Source: Gammaproteobacteria bacterium (GTDB taxonomy: Bacteria > Pseudomonadota > Gammaproteobacteria > Eutrophobiales > Eutrophobiaceae). Taken from it: DNA of 64,000 bases. Each line of letters starts with the position of its first letter. Position 1 is the stretch's first letter. The notes under the pieces are model-generated. The model did not search any database and was not told the origin of the DNA. It worked only from the letters and a program-made list of their open reading frames with translations. The stretch spans positions 1 to 64,000 of the forward strand of contig JANQNX010000003.1 in NCBI GenBank assembly GCA_028279365.1, written 5' to 3'. The position numbers were made by a program, and so were the translations under genes. Of this stretch, positions 7,608 to 15,864 are shown piece by piece.

Positions 7608-8900
7608 ATGACAGCTAGATTCATCGCAACTCAGATACTGGGCAATGTCATAGAAAAAAAGATGCACTTATCGTTTGCGCTGGAACAGCAAGCCTTGCTT
7701 AAAGCCAACGATAAAGCACTGGTCCAGGAATTATGCTACGGAAGTTTACGTTGGTTCCTGCAACTTAATGCGATTCTCGATGCGTTACTTGAAAAGCCGA
7801 TCAGAAAAAAAGATAGCCTGATTAAATACCTGATCATTATCGGCTTATACCAATTGAAATACATGCGTATCCCTAACCATGCCGTGGTCAGTGAAACAGT
7901 CAAGGTCTGCAAGAAAATAAAAAAAGAGTCGGCCAAGGGATTGGTTAATGCAATATTAAGGCGCTATCTTCGTGAACAGGATGAATTAAACGCCATGCTC
8001 AATAGGGATGATAATAGTTTACATGCACACCCCGATTGGTTAATTGATGCGCTGCAAGCCGACTGGCCCTTGGAATGGCGCAGCATCGTTAAGGCCAATA
8101 ATCAAAAACCGCCGATGTATCTTCGTGTCAACCAACAGAAAACAACACGAGAGGCTTATCTGAAAAAACTATCCGATGCAGGTCTGGAAGCTGCTAGCAC
8201 GCCTTTCTCTAAGCAGGGAATTAAACTGAATAATGCATGCCAGGTCGAGGACTTGCCCGGCTTTTACCAGGGTATGGTCTCGGTGCAGGATTTATCAGCG
8301 CAGTTAGCATGCCAATATCTCAAATTACAACCGGACTTAAATATACTAGACGCTTGTGCAGGCCCAGGTGGCAAAAGTGCACATATACTTGAATCGCAAC
8401 CATTACTGCAACGGGCAACATTGATAGAAAAAGTACCCGCTCGTGCAAAAAAAATTGAGCAAACTTTACAAAGAGTAGAGCTTAACGCCGAATTAATTAT
8501 CGATGATGTCTGTCATATCGATAGTTGGTGGGATGGTGAACACTATGATCGCATCTTGTTAGATGCCCCTTGCTCGGCATCAGGCGTAATCCGACGTCAT
8601 CCCGATATTAAGCTGCTTCGTACTCAGGAAGATGTAGAAAAAATTAATCACCTGCAATCAACCATGCTACAGAAGCTATGGAACGTGCTAAAACCGGGAG
8701 GCATACTGTTATACGTGACCTGTTCAGTGTTAAAAATTGAGAATACAAAGACAATCGAAAACTTTATTAAACAACATAATGATTGCGAGTTAGATGTGAT
8801 TAACGATAGTTGTGGTGCCGATACCGGCTATGGTTTACAAATCTTGCCCGGCGATGATGATATGGACGGTTTTTTTTATGCCCGTCTGAAAAAAAACTGA
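7608..8900 (+). CDS. rsmB: 16S rRNA (cytosine-967-C5)-methyltransferase
   Basis: RsmB (Sun/Fmu) methylates C967 of 16S rRNA. Residues 1-140 form the NusB-like RNA-binding domain (LVQELCYGSLRWFLQLNAIL). The SAM domain follows with LDACAGPGGKSAHILE. The two catalytic cysteines of m5C methyltransferases are present in LLDAPCSASGVIRRHPDIKL and LLYVTCSVLKIENT. 430 residues is the usual size. It follows fmt after 13 nt, as in E. coli and Pseudomonas; its stop overlaps the next start by one base (TGATG). Confidence 0.97.
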   Translation: MTARFIATQILGNVIEKKMHLSFALEQQALLKANDKALVQELCYGSLRWFLQLNAILDALLEKPIRKKDSLIKYLIIIGLYQLKYMRIPNHAVVSETVKVCKKIKKESAKGLVNAILRRYLREQDELNAMLNRDDNSLHAHPDWLIDALQADWPLEWRSIVKANNQKPPMYLRVNQQKTTREAYLKKLSDAGLEAASTPFSKQGIKLNNACQVEDLPGFYQGMVSVQDLSAQLACQYLKLQPDLNILDACAGPGGKSAHILESQPLLQRATLIEKVPARAKKIEQTLQRVELNAELIIDDVCHIDSWWDGEHYDRILLDAPCSASGVIRRHPDIKLLRTQEDVEKINHLQSTMLQKLWNVLKPGGILLYVTCSVLKIENTKTIENFIKQHNDCELDVINDSCGADTGYGLQILPGDDDMDGFFYARLKKN

Positions 8901-9463
8901 TGATTAAAGCAAACGCGAATAATTTGAGCCTCTATATCACGCTCTTGCTACTGACCAGCATGCAGCTGGCCAAAGCTGATGTCATGCTGGCATCATTAGA
9001 TCCTTATATAGAAAACAATCAACACTTTATTGACGCCAGCTTTGACGTCGAATTAACCGATGAGATAACCAAAGCCTTGTTACAGGGTATTCCCATTGTC
9101 CTCAATACAGAAATACAAATATTGAAAAAAAGGAAATGGTTTCCAGACAAAAAACTCAAGACCATTAACTTACGTTACGAACTCGAACACCGCCCGTTGA
9201 CGCAGGATTACTTCACATTCAATTTCAACAACGGCAACAGCCGTTCTTTTGATGACCTTGATTCAGCATTAAAATATATTGGCACCATTAATCATTTTGC
9301 CGTACTGGATGAAAACCTTTCTTTACCTGACAGTAATCTTAGCGGACGAATTCGCAGTTATCTCGACCTTGATGCGCTTCCAACTCCGATGAAACCGCAG
9401 ATATATTTTTCACGCGAATGGCAATTGAATAGTGATTGGCAAAACTGGGAATTGGGAAAATGA
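8900..9463 (+). CDS. DUF4390 exported protein
   Basis: A 187-residue protein with an N-terminal signal sequence (hydrophobic LSLYITLLLLTSMQLAKA) and a beta-rich body. Strings such as FDVELTDEITKALLQGIPIV, RKWFPDKKLKTINLRYELEH and IYFSREWQLNS match the DUF4390 family, whose function is unknown. The family is regularly encoded directly before ntrY, as here, suggesting a role in envelope sensing by NtrY; that is inference from context. It starts one base into the rsmB stop and overlaps ntrY by four bases (ATGA). Confidence 0.85.
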   Translation: MIKANANNLSLYITLLLLTSMQLAKADVMLASLDPYIENNQHFIDASFDVELTDEITKALLQGIPIVLNTEIQILKKRKWFPDKKLKTINLRYELEHRPLTQDYFTFNFNNGNSRSFDDLDSALKYIGTINHFAVLDENLSLPDSNLSGRIRSYLDLDALPTPMKPQIYFSREWQLNSDWQNWELGK

Positions 9464-11661
9464 AACGCGGTATCAAGTTAATCACCTTTGCCGGTTTTAG
9501 CCTGTTCCTACTGATGCTGGGCTCGTTGTTGCTAATGAGTCACTCGCTGCAGAACCCGGAATTGTTTGATCAATATTATTCCATTCTGTTCATTCTTAAT
9601 GTTATCGGATTATTCAGCCTGATTGTGTTAATCGCGATAAATTTCAGGCGTTTGTTCAGACAAGCAAAACATCAGGTGATTGGTTCAAAAATGGCCATAC
9701 GCCTGGTCATGATTTTTTCACTACTATCGGTAACGCCGGTGTTGGTTGTGTACTATTTTTCGCTCGATTTTCTTCACCGCGGCATCGATAGCTGGTTCGA
9801 TCTTAGAGTAGAACAGGCACTGGACAACTCACTCGAGTTAAGTCGGTTGGCGCTGGATGTGCGTATGCGCGAACTGCTGAAAACCACAGAACAAACTGCC
9901 AAGGAACTGAGCGAATTTCGGGATGCAGTATTACCATTTGAAATTGACCAGTTTCGTGAGCAAATTGTTGCCAATGAATTGACCTTATTTAATGGCAAGA
10001 AAACCATTATTGCTTCCAGTTCCAACGATACCAGCAGCCTGGTGCCGGATTTACCTGGCGATAATATCTTGTTGCAATTACAACAAGGCAACAGCTATAT
10101 CGGATTGGACGTGATTAAAAATGCCGAATTGTTAATTCGAATCGTTACGGCTGTGCCTCAGTTTGATATTGAAAAAGAAACGCGTGTGCTACAAGCACTA
10201 TTCCCTATTTCGGAAAGGATGAATCGACTGACAGAAAGTGTGCAGTCTTCTTACATTAAATATAAAGAACTGTCTTATCTCAGAGAACAACTTAAAGTCA
10301 GCTTCATTATTATTCTGACGCTGGTGTTATTATTTAGCATCTTTAGTGCAGTATGGGCTGCCTTTTATTCATCGGCTAATCTGGTCGCACCCGTCAAAAA
10401 TCTGGCCAAAGGTACGCGTGCCATTGCCGAAGGTAATTATGATACGCGCTTACCGGTGCCCAGCAATGACGAGCTTGGTTATCTGGTCGCATCGTTTAAC
10501 GATATGACAGATCGAATTGAACAAGCCCGGAACAATGCAAGTGCCAGTCAGCAAGAGGCGGAAGAACAACGACGCTATCTTGAAACGGTGCTATCACGGC
10601 TCTCCTCCGGTGTGTTGGTCATTAACCCGTCAGGCTATCTTGAGAAAATAAACGTGAGCGCTGCTTTGATCTTGCAGATCGATGATGCCAGCCTGGAGAA
10701 ATACGACCTGATCACATTATCAGATGAATATACAAGGCTCACGCCCTTCTTCGAATGTATATCGAACAATATTGACGAGCACAATGATGAATGGCGTGAG
10801 CAAGTGACGATCCAGGATAATACCGGCGAACAGTTTCTTATGATTAGCGGAGCCTTGTTAACAAATAACAATAAAGATGTCATTGGTCACGTCATCGTGT
10901 TTGACGAAATTACAGCATTAATTAAAGGTCAACGCGACGCCGCCTGGAGCGAAATGGCAAGGAGACTGGCACATGAAATTAAAAACCCGTTAACGCCGAT
11001 TCAATTAGCAGCAGAACGTTTGCGGCATAAATATTTGCCTGGCATGGAGTCCACGCAGTCTGACACAATGGACAGAATGACAAACACCATAATTCAGCAA
11101 GTCGATACCATGAAAGATATGGTAAACAGTTTCTCTGATTATGCCCGTGCACCAGAATTCAATCCCGATAAACTCGACATCAAAAAATTATTACAGGAAG
11201 TCATCGATTTATTCAGTACCATGGACTACGGCAATAAAGTTGAGATTGAGATTGAACAGAACCTCCCTGATATTTACGGTGATGAGAAAAAACTCCGCCA
11301 GGTGTTCAACAACCTGTTGCGAAACGCGGTCGATGCCAATGCCTCTGATGAAGATAATTATTTGCACATCACGGCCGGACTCATCAGCAAAAATGATCAG
11401 GATATGATCGAAATCAGAATTATCGACCGGGGTCCGGGTATAGACAGCAGTATAGTGAATAGCCTGTTTGAACCCTACATTACGACTAAACAAAAAGGTA
11501 CCGGACTCGGACTACCGATTGTCAAAAAGATTATCGATGAACATAATGGTGTCGTTTGGCTGGAAAATAATGAAAACGGTAACGGTGCTACCGCAGTCAT
11601 TCGTTTACCGGTATTTCACTCTGCTTACGACTTTAAACAAAACAAACGTCAGATATCATGA
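9460..11661 (+). CDS. ntrY: Sensor histidine kinase NtrY
   Basis: A 733-residue membrane kinase. Two N-terminal membrane helices (about residues 5-60) and a third at about 75-100 precede a periplasmic sensor region. A further helix lies near 285-310, then HAMP (about 315-370), PAS (about 385-490), the dimerisation/phosphoacceptor domain with the histidine in RRLAHEIKNPLTPIQLAAER, and an ATPase domain with NNLLRNAVDA, DRGPGID and GTGLGLPIVKK. I use the ATG at 9460, which gives an ATGA overlap with the upstream gene; a TTG eight codons earlier is also in frame. NtrY phosphorylates NtrX and has been linked to nitrogen and redox/respiratory control; which signal acts here is not visible. Confidence 0.93.
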   Translation: MKRGIKLITFAGFSLFLLMLGSLLLMSHSLQNPELFDQYYSILFILNVIGLFSLIVLIAINFRRLFRQAKHQVIGSKMAIRLVMIFSLLSVTPVLVVYYFSLDFLHRGIDSWFDLRVEQALDNSLELSRLALDVRMRELLKTTEQTAKELSEFRDAVLPFEIDQFREQIVANELTLFNGKKTIIASSSNDTSSLVPDLPGDNILLQLQQGNSYIGLDVIKNAELLIRIVTAVPQFDIEKETRVLQALFPISERMNRLTESVQSSYIKYKELSYLREQLKVSFIIILTLVLLFSIFSAVWAAFYSSANLVAPVKNLAKGTRAIAEGNYDTRLPVPSNDELGYLVASFNDMTDRIEQARNNASASQQEAEEQRRYLETVLSRLSSGVLVINPSGYLEKINVSAALILQIDDASLEKYDLITLSDEYTRLTPFFECISNNIDEHNDEWREQVTIQDNTGEQFLMISGALLTNNNKDVIGHVIVFDEITALIKGQRDAAWSEMARRLAHEIKNPLTPIQLAAERLRHKYLPGMESTQSDTMDRMTNTIIQQVDTMKDMVNSFSDYARAPEFNPDKLDIKKLLQEVIDLFSTMDYGNKVEIEIEQNLPDIYGDEKKLRQVFNNLLRNAVDANASDEDNYLHITAGLISKNDQDMIEIRIIDRGPGIDSSIVNSLFEPYITTKQKGTGLGLPIVKKIIDEHNGVVWLENNENGNGATAVIRLPVFHSAYDFKQNKRQIS

Positions 11662-13016
11662 GTAAACGCAGCATACTTGTCGTCGATGATGAACCGGATA
11701 TTAGAAATCTTGTTCAGGAAATTCTGGTCGATGAAGGTTTTTCCGTCACTGCGGCTGAAAATGCTGAACAGGCCAAACAACGCATTGGCGAATTCCAGCC
11801 GGATCTGATCCTGCTTGATATCTGGATGCCGGATATCGACGGCATTACCTTACTTAAAGAATGGAAAGAACAAGACAATATTGATGCAGCTGTCGTGATG
11901 ATGTCCGGCCATGGCAATGTCGAAACGGCTGTAGAGGCGACCCGACACGGTGCCTACGACTTTATCGAAAAACCGCTTTCTATCGCCAAATTACTTCTCA
12001 CAATAAAACATGCACTGGAGACAACCTCACTACAGCAGGAAAATCTGCAACTCCAACATTCAGGTTTTAACAAAATACAACCTATTGGAAAAAGTCCGCA
12101 AATTAATCAGCTACGCGATCAATTAAGACGCATCGCCAGTCACGACACGCCGGTTATTATGCTGGGTGAATCCGGTACGGATAAGGAATTGTACGCGCGC
12201 TATCTGCATTCTATTAGTCCCAGAAAAGATGGGCCATTCATCACAATTAGCGTTTCAGCCTTGAATAAAGATCATGCTGAAAATGAACTGTTTGGTATTG
12301 AGACAGATAACCAATTACAGCCGGGTTACCTCGATCGCGCCCAGGGCGGCGCACTGTTCATCAAGGACATTGCTGAACTTAACAGCCAACTTCAATCCAG
12401 GCTGCACGACGTACTGGAAACAAAAAGCTTTAGCCATGTTGGCGGTACTGATGCCATTAATCTGGATACCAGAATCATCTCTGCCACCCGTTACGATATT
12501 GAGCAGCTGATTAATGACGGTAAATTCAGGGACGATTTGTATTATTTGTTAAATATATTGCCGGTGAATATACCGGCCTTACGTGAACATTTTGAAGATG
12601 TGCCGGCTATACTCGAATATTACGTAAACTTTTTTATAGAGACTGAAGGTCTGCCTTATCGCAGATTTAGCGTGGCTGCACAAAACAGATTACGAACTTA
12701 CAACTGGCCGGGAAATATTCGCGAACTGAAAAACCTGGTGCAGCGAATGCTGATAATGGGCACGCAGGAGACTATCGAAATCGAGGAAGTTGAGACGGCG
12801 CTCGGTAATATTGACAATAAAACCACTGCTTCCAATTCTGGTTCATTTAATTTTGATCTACCCTTACGCGAGGCCAGAGAAAATTTTGAAAAAGCTTATC
12901 TGGAGTATCAACTTGAAAAAGCCAATGGCAGTGTCAGTAAAGTTGCTACCATTGTCGGCATGGAAAGAACTCACCTGTATCGAAAACTGAAGACGCTTGG
13001 AATCGAATTGAAATGA
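11658..13016 (+). CDS. ntrX: Response regulator NtrX with degenerate AAA+ domain
   Basis: A 452-residue regulator. The receiver domain (1-120) is intact, with acidic pocket VDDEPD and phosphoacceptor Asp in LILLDIWMPDIDG. The C-terminal Fis-type helix-turn-helix (about 410-450) is intact (VSKVATIVGMERTHLYRKL). The central domain is recognisably of the sigma-54 activator type but damaged: Walker A reads GESGTDKE instead of GESGTGKE (about 169-176), the GAFTGA loop is absent after ELFG (about 210-225), Walker B reads GGALFIKDI, and the second arginine of the R-finger segment is leucine (FRDDLYYLLN). It probably cannot remodel sigma-54 polymerase and more likely acts as a DNA-binding activator or repressor. 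Overlaps ntrY and trkA by ATGA. Confidence 0.93.
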   Translation: MSKRSILVVDDEPDIRNLVQEILVDEGFSVTAAENAEQAKQRIGEFQPDLILLDIWMPDIDGITLLKEWKEQDNIDAAVVMMSGHGNVETAVEATRHGAYDFIEKPLSIAKLLLTIKHALETTSLQQENLQLQHSGFNKIQPIGKSPQINQLRDQLRRIASHDTPVIMLGESGTDKELYARYLHSISPRKDGPFITISVSALNKDHAENELFGIETDNQLQPGYLDRAQGGALFIKDIAELNSQLQSRLHDVLETKSFSHVGGTDAINLDTRIISATRYDIEQLINDGKFRDDLYYLLNILPVNIPALREHFEDVPAILEYYVNFFIETEGLPYRRFSVAAQNRLRTYNWPGNIRELKNLVQRMLIMGTQETIEIEEVETALGNIDNKTTASNSGSFNFDLPLREARENFEKAYLEYQLEKANGSVSKVATIVGMERTHLYRKLKTLGIELK

Positions 13017-14386
13017 AAATCATCATACTCGGAGCGGGTCAGGTCGGTATCTCTGTTGCCGCCAACCTGGTCAATGAAGATAACGACATTACACTGGTGG
13101 ATAACAATCCTGCGGCTTTGCAACTGGTCAGTGAACGTTATGACCTGAGGACGGTTACCGGCGTTGCCTCACACCCCTCGGTATTGGAAAAAGCCGGTGC
13201 ACGTGACGCCGATATGATCCTCGCCGTCACCAATAGTGATGAAGTCAACATGATCGCATGTCAGGTAGCTTATACGCTTTATCATACGCCTACCAAGATT
13301 GCGCGTATAAGAGAGCAAGCCTACCTGGCAAATAATGCATTATTTGCCCAGGAGGCACTGCCTGTCGATGTGCTAATCAGTCCGGAAAAACTGGTAACTG
13401 AATCGATTCAACGTTTGATTCAACACCCCGGCGCACTGCAGGTTGTTGACTTCGCCTCCGGCAAGGCACAGATCGTTGCTATTAAAGTCGCTTATGATGG
13501 CAAGTTAGTCAGTCACTCAATTCGCAATCTCAAGAACGAACTGGCCAATATCGATTATCGCATTGTGCTGATATTCAGAGATGGGAAACCGTTGATACCT
13601 GATGGTGATACCGTTATCAAAACCAACGACGAATTATTTTTTCTCAGTTCATCAGATTCGATCGACCGTCTTTTACAAGTCATTCGCAATAATGAGAAAC
13701 CGTTAAAAAATATCATTATTGCTGGTGGCGGTAATATTGGCTTGCGACTGGCAAAATCACTCGAAGATAATTACAAGGTAAAAATGATCGAGATGGATCC
13801 GGTCAAAGCACGTTTTGCCTCAGAGGAATTGAATAATACTGTCGTACTAAACGGTGATGCGGCTGATGAAGAATTATTGGTCGAGGAAGACATTGAACAT
13901 ACTGATGTCTATTGTTCATTAACCAATGCGGATGAAGCGAATATTATTTCATCTATGCTTGCCAAGCGGCTTGGGGCACATAAGGTTATGGCTTTAATCA
14001 ATCGCGCCGCTTATGTGGATCTGATGCAAAGTAATACCATCGATATTGCTATCTCACCACAACAGGCAACAATAGGCAGTCTGTTAACGCACATCCGAAA
14101 AGGCGATGTCGCAGCTGTACATTCACTGCGCAGAGGCGCAGCCGAATCGATCGAGGCCATTGCACATGGCGATAAAAGTTCATCAAACGTAGTCGGAAAA
14201 AAGATCAATGATATTGCGCTTCCAGAAAGCGCAACCATCGGCGCGATAGTCAGAGGTGATAAAGTGATCATTGCTGATAGCAACACTGTGATCGAAGCCG
14301 AAGATCACGTCATCATTGTTGTTGCTGATAAACGCGATGTATCCGCTGTAGAGAGTCTGTTCCAGGTAGGCATCACGTTTTTATAA
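13013..14386 (+). CDS. trkA: Trk system potassium uptake protein TrkA
   Basis: Peripheral regulatory subunit that gates the TrkH channel by binding nucleotides. Two tandem RCK units are visible: the first NAD-binding fold opens MKIIILGAGQVGISVAANL and the second at about residue 235 has IIIAGGGNIGLRLAKSLE. Each is followed by a TrkA_C domain (about 140-220 and 365-455). 457 residues is the usual full length. It starts in the ntrX stop (ATGA). trkA after rsmB is the ancestral arrangement in E. coli and Pseudomonas; here DUF4390-ntrYX sits between them. Confidence 0.96.
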   Translation: MKIIILGAGQVGISVAANLVNEDNDITLVDNNPAALQLVSERYDLRTVTGVASHPSVLEKAGARDADMILAVTNSDEVNMIACQVAYTLYHTPTKIARIREQAYLANNALFAQEALPVDVLISPEKLVTESIQRLIQHPGALQVVDFASGKAQIVAIKVAYDGKLVSHSIRNLKNELANIDYRIVLIFRDGKPLIPDGDTVIKTNDELFFLSSSDSIDRLLQVIRNNEKPLKNIIIAGGGNIGLRLAKSLEDNYKVKMIEMDPVKARFASEELNNTVVLNGDAADEELLVEEDIEHTDVYCSLTNADEANIISSMLAKRLGAHKVMALINRAAYVDLMQSNTIDIAISPQQATIGSLLTHIRKGDVAAVHSLRRGAAESIEAIAHGDKSSSNVVGKKINDIALPESATIGAIVRGDKVIIADSNTVIEAEDHVIIVVADKRDVSAVESLFQVGITFL

Positions 14387-14412: not shown

Positions 14413-15864
14413 ATGCAACTGGGTGTGATACAGCGAATCCTTGGCATCTTGCTGTCATTATTCAGCTTTACGATGTTTCCGCCGCTTATCGTCGCACTGA
14501 TGTATAAAGACGATACCATCATGCCGTTTTTATCGGCATTTGGCCTGATTCTCACGATTGGATTAACGCTGTGGTATCCGGTTCGTACTATTAAAAAAGA
14601 ACTGCGATTCCGGGATGGCTTCATTATTGTCGTATTATTCTGGGCCGGTCTTGGGTTGACCGGGAGCGTGCCATTGATCCTTGCCGACACGCCTGAATTA
14701 TCCATCACTGATGCCGTGTTTGAATCAATTTCCGGACTGACCACCACCGGCGCAACCATCATGACCGGACTTGATGTACTGCCTAAATCCATTCAATTTT
14801 ATCGCCATGAACTGCAATGGCTGGGCGGCATGGGGATTATTGTATTGGCGGTAGCAATTTTACCGATGTTAGGTATTGGTGGTATGCAGCTTTATCGTGC
14901 TGAAACGCCGGGCCCGGTGAAAGACACCAAACTGACGCCACGCATTACCGAAACAGCCAAAGCACTATGGTATATTTATTTAAGTATGACTATTGTTTGT
15001 GCCGTGGCGTATTGGTTGGCAGGCATGACCGGTTTTGATGCCATTGCGCACAGCTTTTCAACGGTATCAATTGGTGGCTTTTCTACGCATGATGCCAGCA
15101 TGGGCTATTTCCAAAGTCCGGTGATTGAAACCGTCGCCATCGTTTTCATGTTGCTATCAGGAATAAACTTCAGCCTGCATTTTATTTCATGGCGTAATAT
15201 TACGGTTCAACCTTACTGGCAGGATTCTGAATTAAAAGCCTACCTGAGTATCGTGTTTTTCATTACCTGTATCATTGCCAGTTATCATGTCTATACCAAT
15301 GGCTATGCCTCGTTTGGTAAGGCGTTTGAAGACAGCCTGTTTCAAACCGTATCCATCGCTACTACCACAGGCTTTACCACGGCTTCCTACCAAAGCTGGC
15401 CCAGCTTCATGCCGGTATTATTGTTATTTTCGAGTTTTATCGGTGCCTGTGCCGGCTCAACCGGAGGCGGGATAAAAGTCATACGTATATTATTGTTGTT
15501 TAAACAGGGCATGCGCGAGATTAAAAGACTGGTACATCCTAACGCAGTGTTCATCATCAAGGTCGGCAATAAACCGATACCGGAACGCATTATTGAAGCG
15601 GTCTGGGGATTTTTTGCCGCTTACATTGCCGTGTTTGTGTTCTTACAATTGGCGTTGATGGCAACGCAAATGGATCAAGTCACAGCATTTTCAGCGTTGG
15701 CTGCCTGTATCAATAACCTGGGACCTGGCCTTGGCGATGTCAGTTATCACTATGGCAACATCAGTGATGTTTCCAAGTGGATACTCTGTTTTGCAATGCT
15801 GTTAGGACGACTTGAGATCTTTACTTTGCTGGTCATTCTGACACCCACATTCTGGCGACGATGA
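14413..15864 (+). CDS. trkH: Trk/Ktr potassium channel subunit TrkH
   Basis: Integral membrane potassium-translocating subunit with four M1-P-M2 repeats. Selectivity-loop glycine motifs are visible, for example SISGLTTTGATIMTGL, FSTVSIGGFSTHDAS and VSIATTTGFTTASY, then the IGACAGSTGGGIKVIRILL segment broken by loops. About ten or more membrane helices fill the 483 residues. It lies 26 nt after trkA and forms the TrkAH pair. Its end overlaps the next start by four bases. Confidence 0.96.
   Translation: MQLGVIQRILGILLSLFSFTMFPPLIVALMYKDDTIMPFLSAFGLILTIGLTLWYPVRTIKKELRFRDGFIIVVLFWAGLGLTGSVPLILADTPELSITDAVFESISGLTTTGATIMTGLDVLPKSIQFYRHELQWLGGMGIIVLAVAILPMLGIGGMQLYRAETPGPVKDTKLTPRITETAKALWYIYLSMTIVCAVAYWLAGMTGFDAIAHSFSTVSIGGFSTHDASMGYFQSPVIETVAIVFMLLSGINFSLHFISWRNITVQPYWQDSELKAYLSIVFFITCIIASYHVYTNGYASFGKAFEDSLFQTVSIATTTGFTTASYQSWPSFMPVLLLFSSFIGACAGSTGGGIKVIRILLLFKQGMREIKRLVHPNAVFIIKVGNKPIPERIIEAVWGFFAAYIAVFVFLQLALMATQMDQVTAFSALAACINNLGPGLGDVSYHYGNISDVSKWILCFAMLLGRLEIFTLLVILTPTFWRR

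Follow-up and report, generated by a model that had tools for sequence, protein, structure and literature searches.

How does an NtrX response regulator work when the AAA+ domain between its receiver and its DNA-binding domain has lost motifs expected of a sigma-54 activator (bEBP)? This question is raised by the ntrX gene of the 64-kb window, the whole stretch of DNA analyzed here. The gene (11658-13016, + strand; coding part 11658-13013, stop codon 13014-13016) is an open reading frame for a plrR-type response regulator of 452 aa, with Pfam matches to Response_reg, Sigma54_activat, AAA_lid_14 and HTH_8 that give the domain order receiver (REC), degenerate AAA+, lid and Fis-type HTH. It lies directly 3' of ntrY in the gene order rsmB-plrP(DUF4390)-ntrY-ntrX-trkA-trkH, all on the + strand, and thus belongs to the beta/gamma NtrYX (PlrPSR) type. 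The first gene of the cluster, which encodes an rsmB-type 16S rRNA methyltransferase (7608-8900), owes its name to its sequence and to synteny with the cluster in PMC13001219; trkA (13013-14386, with a 4-base overlap with ntrX) and trkH, for the potassium channel subunit (14413-15864), were also named by sequence and synteny. The product of plrP (8900-9463) is a DUF4390 periplasmic protein (PF14334 match) of a family described as the partner of NtrY-type kinases (PMC13001219). The plrS-type sensor kinase gene, ntrY (9460-11661), overlaps plrP and ntrX by 4 bases each, given an ATG at 9460. Because NtrY has HAMP, PAS, HisKA and HATPase domains, phospho-signalling looks intact; its H box, HEIKNPLTPI, is intact as well. 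In two other genomes (L250 in G076 and L280 in G354) the plrP-ntrY cluster is present and ntrX was found several kb further on (G076:C21:5196-6548; G354:C30:371665-373020), in L250 with unrelated ORFs in between.

The top NCBIfam model for the window protein was NtrX (NF051870), with a score of 465.6 bits that is under the curated cut-off of 600. Its assignment to NtrX therefore rests on synteny and on the tree, in which it groups with other NtrX and apart from in-genome paralogues. Its identity is 47-74% to orthologues, compared with about 31-37% to these paralogues.

The receiver (residues 5-118, 11670-12011; Pfam PF00072) has the active-site residues of a two-component response regulator, including the phospho-acceptor D54, the acidic pair D10/D11, S83 and K105, and all of these were invariant in 72 NtrX. 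The same was true of E436, R437, L440 and K443 in the Fis-type HTH (about residues 400-452, 12855-13013; Pfam HTH_8), whose recognition region reads ERTHLYRK. The original prediction that both domains are intact was thus borne out. It had also placed four alterations in the AAA+ domain, and each of them was found where it had been located. Walker A (residues 170-177, 12165-12188) reads GESGTDKE, with Gly replaced by Asp175 (codon 12180-12182) and Lys176 kept. Loop 1 (ELFGIETDNQLQPG, 12285-12326) lacks GAFTGA: ELFG (residues 210-213, nt 12285-12296) is followed directly by IETDNQLQPG, which leaves the loop five residues short of one that carries GAFTGA. Walker B (residues 230-238, 12345-12371) reads GGALFIKDI, with Asp replaced by Lys236 (codon 12363-12365) and Glu by Asp237, and in the R-finger region, FRDDLYYLLN (residues 290-299, 12525-12554), R291 is kept and the second Arg is replaced by Leu297 (codon 12546-12548). 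It should be noted that some alignments and trees used NtrX trimmed by one N-terminal residue, and the numbering there is one lower.

The wider claim, that every feature needed to drive sigma-54 is altered, went too far: the four features are changed, but Lys176, R291 and, by alignment, the sensor-II R355 are retained, and the change at the second Walker B position is conservative. Of the properties of a bEBP, the protein lacks the GAFTGA loop and the Walker B Asp/Glu and has the AAA+ fold (Pfam PF00158, 142.9 bits). In the AF2 model this fold is kept (block pLDDT 87-97), and in Foldseek searches the model matched Brucella NtrX (the best PDB matches) and bEBP ATPase domains. The four alterations are common almost throughout to the 35 other sequences of the window family, and they are therefore neither chance nor sequencing errors. 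Within the 36 sequences, the Walker A Gly occurs once (1/36), the second R-finger Arg twice (2/36), and neither the Walker B Asp nor the Glu occurs at all (0/36 each).

To place these changes, we drew orthologues from three sources, namely 58 related genomes, 120 class-level regions that lie downstream of DUF4390 matches, and 80 named loci; the outgroup consisted of six NtrX-like proteins from records titled Nitrospirae/Nitrospiraceae, Deltaproteobacteria and Rokubacteria. GAFTGA was present in 6/6 outgroup proteins, in 0/49 alpha NtrX and in 0/187 gamma NtrX. Its loss had been thought rare, a view that does not survive the absence of the motif from all 236 alpha and gamma NtrX examined; such loss is already on record in the literature for the NtrX of Caulobacter and Thioalkalivibrio, and Brucella NtrX also aligns without the motif. 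All six catalytic residues were kept in 6/6 outgroup and 49/49 alpha proteins, in 18/187 gamma NtrX and in none of the window family (0/36). Nor are the four changes one set, as had been supposed, since the loss of GAFTGA is old and the R-finger and Walker B losses are recurrent across gamma NtrX. Mapping the four sites on an NtrX alignment, a check proposed together with the prediction, thus confirmed that all are altered in the window protein but not that all are special to it. The only mark peculiar to its lineage is the pair formed by the Walker A acid and the Walker B Lys. Lys accompanied the acid in 35 of the 37 cases, and in the three cases with Asn in Walker A the Walker B residue was Asn too; few independent changes underlie this pattern, and the independent-pairs test of the coupling included only four pairs, too few for significance.

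Other states of these motifs were also observed. In L022, L024 and L028, from genomes of 1.4-1.5 Mb in the same family, the Walker A Asp and the Walker B Lys have both become Asn, and the sensor-II Arg is lost (WPGNESEL). A separate gamma branch (L061, L083, L086, L152, L158, L198, L215 and neighbours) has Arg in place of the Walker A Lys (GxGR) and Walker B losses of its own. The family f95 protein L287 (G130:C1:82473-83696) is a very eroded NtrX-like protein (GTPSSGAS, GGILVIRLI) whose genome has its plrP-ntrY locus elsewhere.

NtrX trees, which were computed with the AAA+ catalytic columns excluded, branched in the order outgroup, alpha, gamma, with an intact Acidithiobacillus-type NtrX (L084) near the gamma base. 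The gamma backbone is weakly supported, with 72 of 193 inner branches open. Parsimony on the tree, which is rough and weakly supported in parts, gave at least 28 changes of the Walker B Asp, 28 of the Glu and 20 of the second R-finger. On this rough count, the catalytic losses in gamma NtrX appear to be parallel, with dozens of them on the tree. In the window's lineage, a 46-row clade (SH-aLRT 95-96) is for the most part characterized by Walker B Lys; nested in it is a 36-37-row clade (98) characterized by the acidic Walker A, so that Lys arose first. A small-genome genus within the window's own 10-row clade carries Asn at the two positions, and there was one row with a reversion to Gly. The D/K pair itself may have arisen twice, since L188 and L261, which carry the same pair, fall outside the clade in the second tree (their group of four has a support of 93). 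The Walker A Lys was absent in 35/196 tree rows, two of which have no AAA+ domain. Two AAA-less NtrX of one family (L181 and L203) grouped with three NtrX that rank among those with the most eroded AAA+ domains (L169, L255 and L270), and this nesting suggests that the domain was lost when it was already dead.

Does the erosion reflect the absence of sigma-54? The window's own genome has sigma-54 and, besides NtrX, nine further normal-scoring sigma-54 activator domains, so erosion there is confined to NtrX. The five of these nine that were read out all have a normal Walker A, with GAFTGA in four and GAFTNA in one. Across the 64-kb window, the sigma-54 promoter pattern had 39 matches at two or fewer mismatches, practically the 38.6 expected, and is therefore uninformative. 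We then turned to genomes without sigma-54. Among 370 genomes of the class, 249 had DUF4390 and 311 had sigma-54, and comparison of the two lists by eye yielded six genomes with DUF4390 but without the sigma-54 DNA-binding domain. G074, G114 and G309 were rejected as examples because normal bEBPs are present, which makes a gap in the assembly the probable cause of the missing sigma-54; G034 was rejected likewise for its normal bEBPs. In G389, G199 and G122, searches with three Pfam domains detected no sigma-54 DNA-binding, core-binding or activator-interacting domain, and no normal bEBP was found in them. The assemblies in which sigma-54 was not detected are drafts with a completeness of 96-98%. 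NtrX of G389 has an eroded AAA+ domain (GGTLLLEDI, LREDLYHLLD), and in that of G199 both Walker A and Walker B are destroyed (GEPGCEFL, GGTLFMNPL). In G122, an unrelated ORF comes after ntrY (locus L276), and the NtrX (L289, G122:C19:12055-12432), a 198-aa protein encoded away from ntrY, consists of a receiver and a short HTH, with no AAA+ domain. The persistence of NtrX in these three sigma-54-less genomes is the strongest evidence that sigma-54 is dispensable for the function of gamma NtrX. Because such genomes keep NtrX, sigma-54 activation by the window protein is very unlikely, in agreement with the original prediction that this mode is not used.

We consider it likely that the window NtrX is a phosphorylation-controlled, sigma-54-independent DNA-binding regulator whose pseudo-ATPase is kept as a scaffold, and it very probably acts by phosphorylation and DNA binding alone. 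Judged by its sequence, which has lost GAFTGA, the AAA+ domain is unable to make the known contact with sigma-54. In bEBPs, hydrolysis stops when the Walker B acids are lost. As the window protein has lost the Walker B Asp/Glu and one R-finger, the domain very probably cannot hydrolyse ATP. With no sigma-54 contact and very probably no hydrolysis, NtrX would be expected to act on sigma-70-type promoters, as an activator or a repressor. NtrY, probably tuned by PlrP, would phosphorylate Asp54, as the intact domains and the Bordetella system suggest. Phosphorylation would alter how dimers or oligomers are arranged and, through this, how the conserved Fis-type HTH binds DNA, and the AAA+ fold would be retained as a spacer and oligomerization scaffold between receiver and HTH.

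Hypothetically, the Walker A acid and the Walker B Lys gained in this family could pair as a salt bridge within the pocket and so take the place of Mg-ATP. As a tentative and somewhat doubtful extension, this pair might lock the AAA+ domain in one state, with phosphorylation alone driving it, and gamma NtrX might form a graded series from ATP-using through pseudo-ATPase to AAA-less proteins. The best-surviving alternative is that the domain binds ATP or another nucleotide without hydrolysis, as a needed oligomerization switch at sigma-70 promoters, and that K236 could replace Mg2+. Lys176 (36/36), the sensor-II Arg (33/36) and the first R-finger Arg (30/36) are largely kept in the window family, which is compatible with retained nucleotide binding; Rhodobacter capsulatus NtrC works in this manner, needing ATP binding and not hydrolysis (PMC10274813), and structures of Brucella NtrX have been solved both with ATP and with ADP. 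However, phosphate should be repelled by an acid immediately preceding the Walker A Lys, and because other gamma lineages have lost this Lys or the whole domain, NtrX in general can do without nucleotide binding. On balance, we regard a nucleotide-dependent switch as rather unlikely.

It is very improbable that the window NtrX is a dominant-negative element of the sigma-54 system that acts through mixed oligomers with other bEBPs or by blocking sites; the preserved AAA+ fold and the coexistence of sigma-54 with the nine activator domains would suit such a role, but NtrX persists in genomes without sigma-54 or other bEBPs, and as AAA-less proteins. With regard to selection, dN/dS of the AAA+ region was 0.04-0.18 where dS was unsaturated, similar to or somewhat above that of the receiver, and the AAA/REC distance ratio was 2.3-2.4 in gamma NtrX versus 1.29 in alpha NtrX. 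The low dN/dS and the faster evolution of AAA+ than of the receiver in gamma NtrX indicate that the domain is constrained, though less than in alpha NtrX. Neutral decay of ntrX, as a pseudogene or an annotation or assembly error, could draw on this faster AAA+ evolution relative to the receiver, but we reject it as hardly credible, in line with the prediction, given an open frame, conserved synteny, purifying selection (dN/dS under 0.2 in every comparison with unsaturated dS), the confidently modelled AAA+ fold, invariant receiver and HTH residues and the same changes in 35 relatives.

AAA+ regulators are usually assumed to need ATP hydrolysis. Gamma NtrX presents many parallel natural losses of ATPase residues in one orthologue and in a largely constant gene context, with domains ranging from intact to wholly discarded. 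With this series one can test in what order residues are given up, whether there is a benefit in retaining the fold when ATP is no longer used, and by what route a sigma-54-type activator becomes a plain response regulator. For most gamma NtrX, the automatic label "sigma-54-dependent regulator" is very likely incorrect. The loss of GAFTGA in NtrX and the loss of AAA+ in beta NtrX are already known. In the open-access literature searched, we found no description of Walker and R-finger erosion across gamma NtrX; a prior mention elsewhere is possible.

Among known systems, Vibrio cholerae VspR and VpsR-type bEBPs resemble the window NtrX in having AAA+ without a requirement for sigma-54, and VpsR was among the fold matches of the model. 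VspR is said not to need ATP, and VpsR is under c-di-GMP control; unlike the window gene, neither is in an ntrYX cluster. NtrC of R. capsulatus and of Caulobacter are likewise bEBP-like proteins that lack GAFTGA and work at sigma-70 promoters, a role that is only proposed for the window protein. They represent a different orthologue, and the former depends on ATP binding and the latter has been argued to need both binding and hydrolysis, whereas the window NtrX has lost catalytic residues. Alpha NtrX is closer: that of Brucella abortus (PDB 5m7n/5m7o/5m7p), the best PDB match by sequence and by fold (39-40% identity), shares the receiver-AAA+-HTH order and the absence of GAFTGA. However, all 49 alpha NtrX retain Walker A, Walker B and the two R-finger Arg, and the window protein is changed at the Walker A Gly, the Walker B Asp/Glu and one R-finger. 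Bordetella PlrPSR, a beta/gamma NtrYX system with the DUF4390 protein PlrP, has the same six-gene order, rsmB-plrP-plrS-plrR-trkA-trkH, including the 4-base overlaps (PMC13001219). It differs in the regulator itself: beta NtrX without the whole AAA+ domain has been published, according to a statement in PMC13001219 that cites Bonato 2016, whereas in the window NtrX the domain is degenerate and retained.
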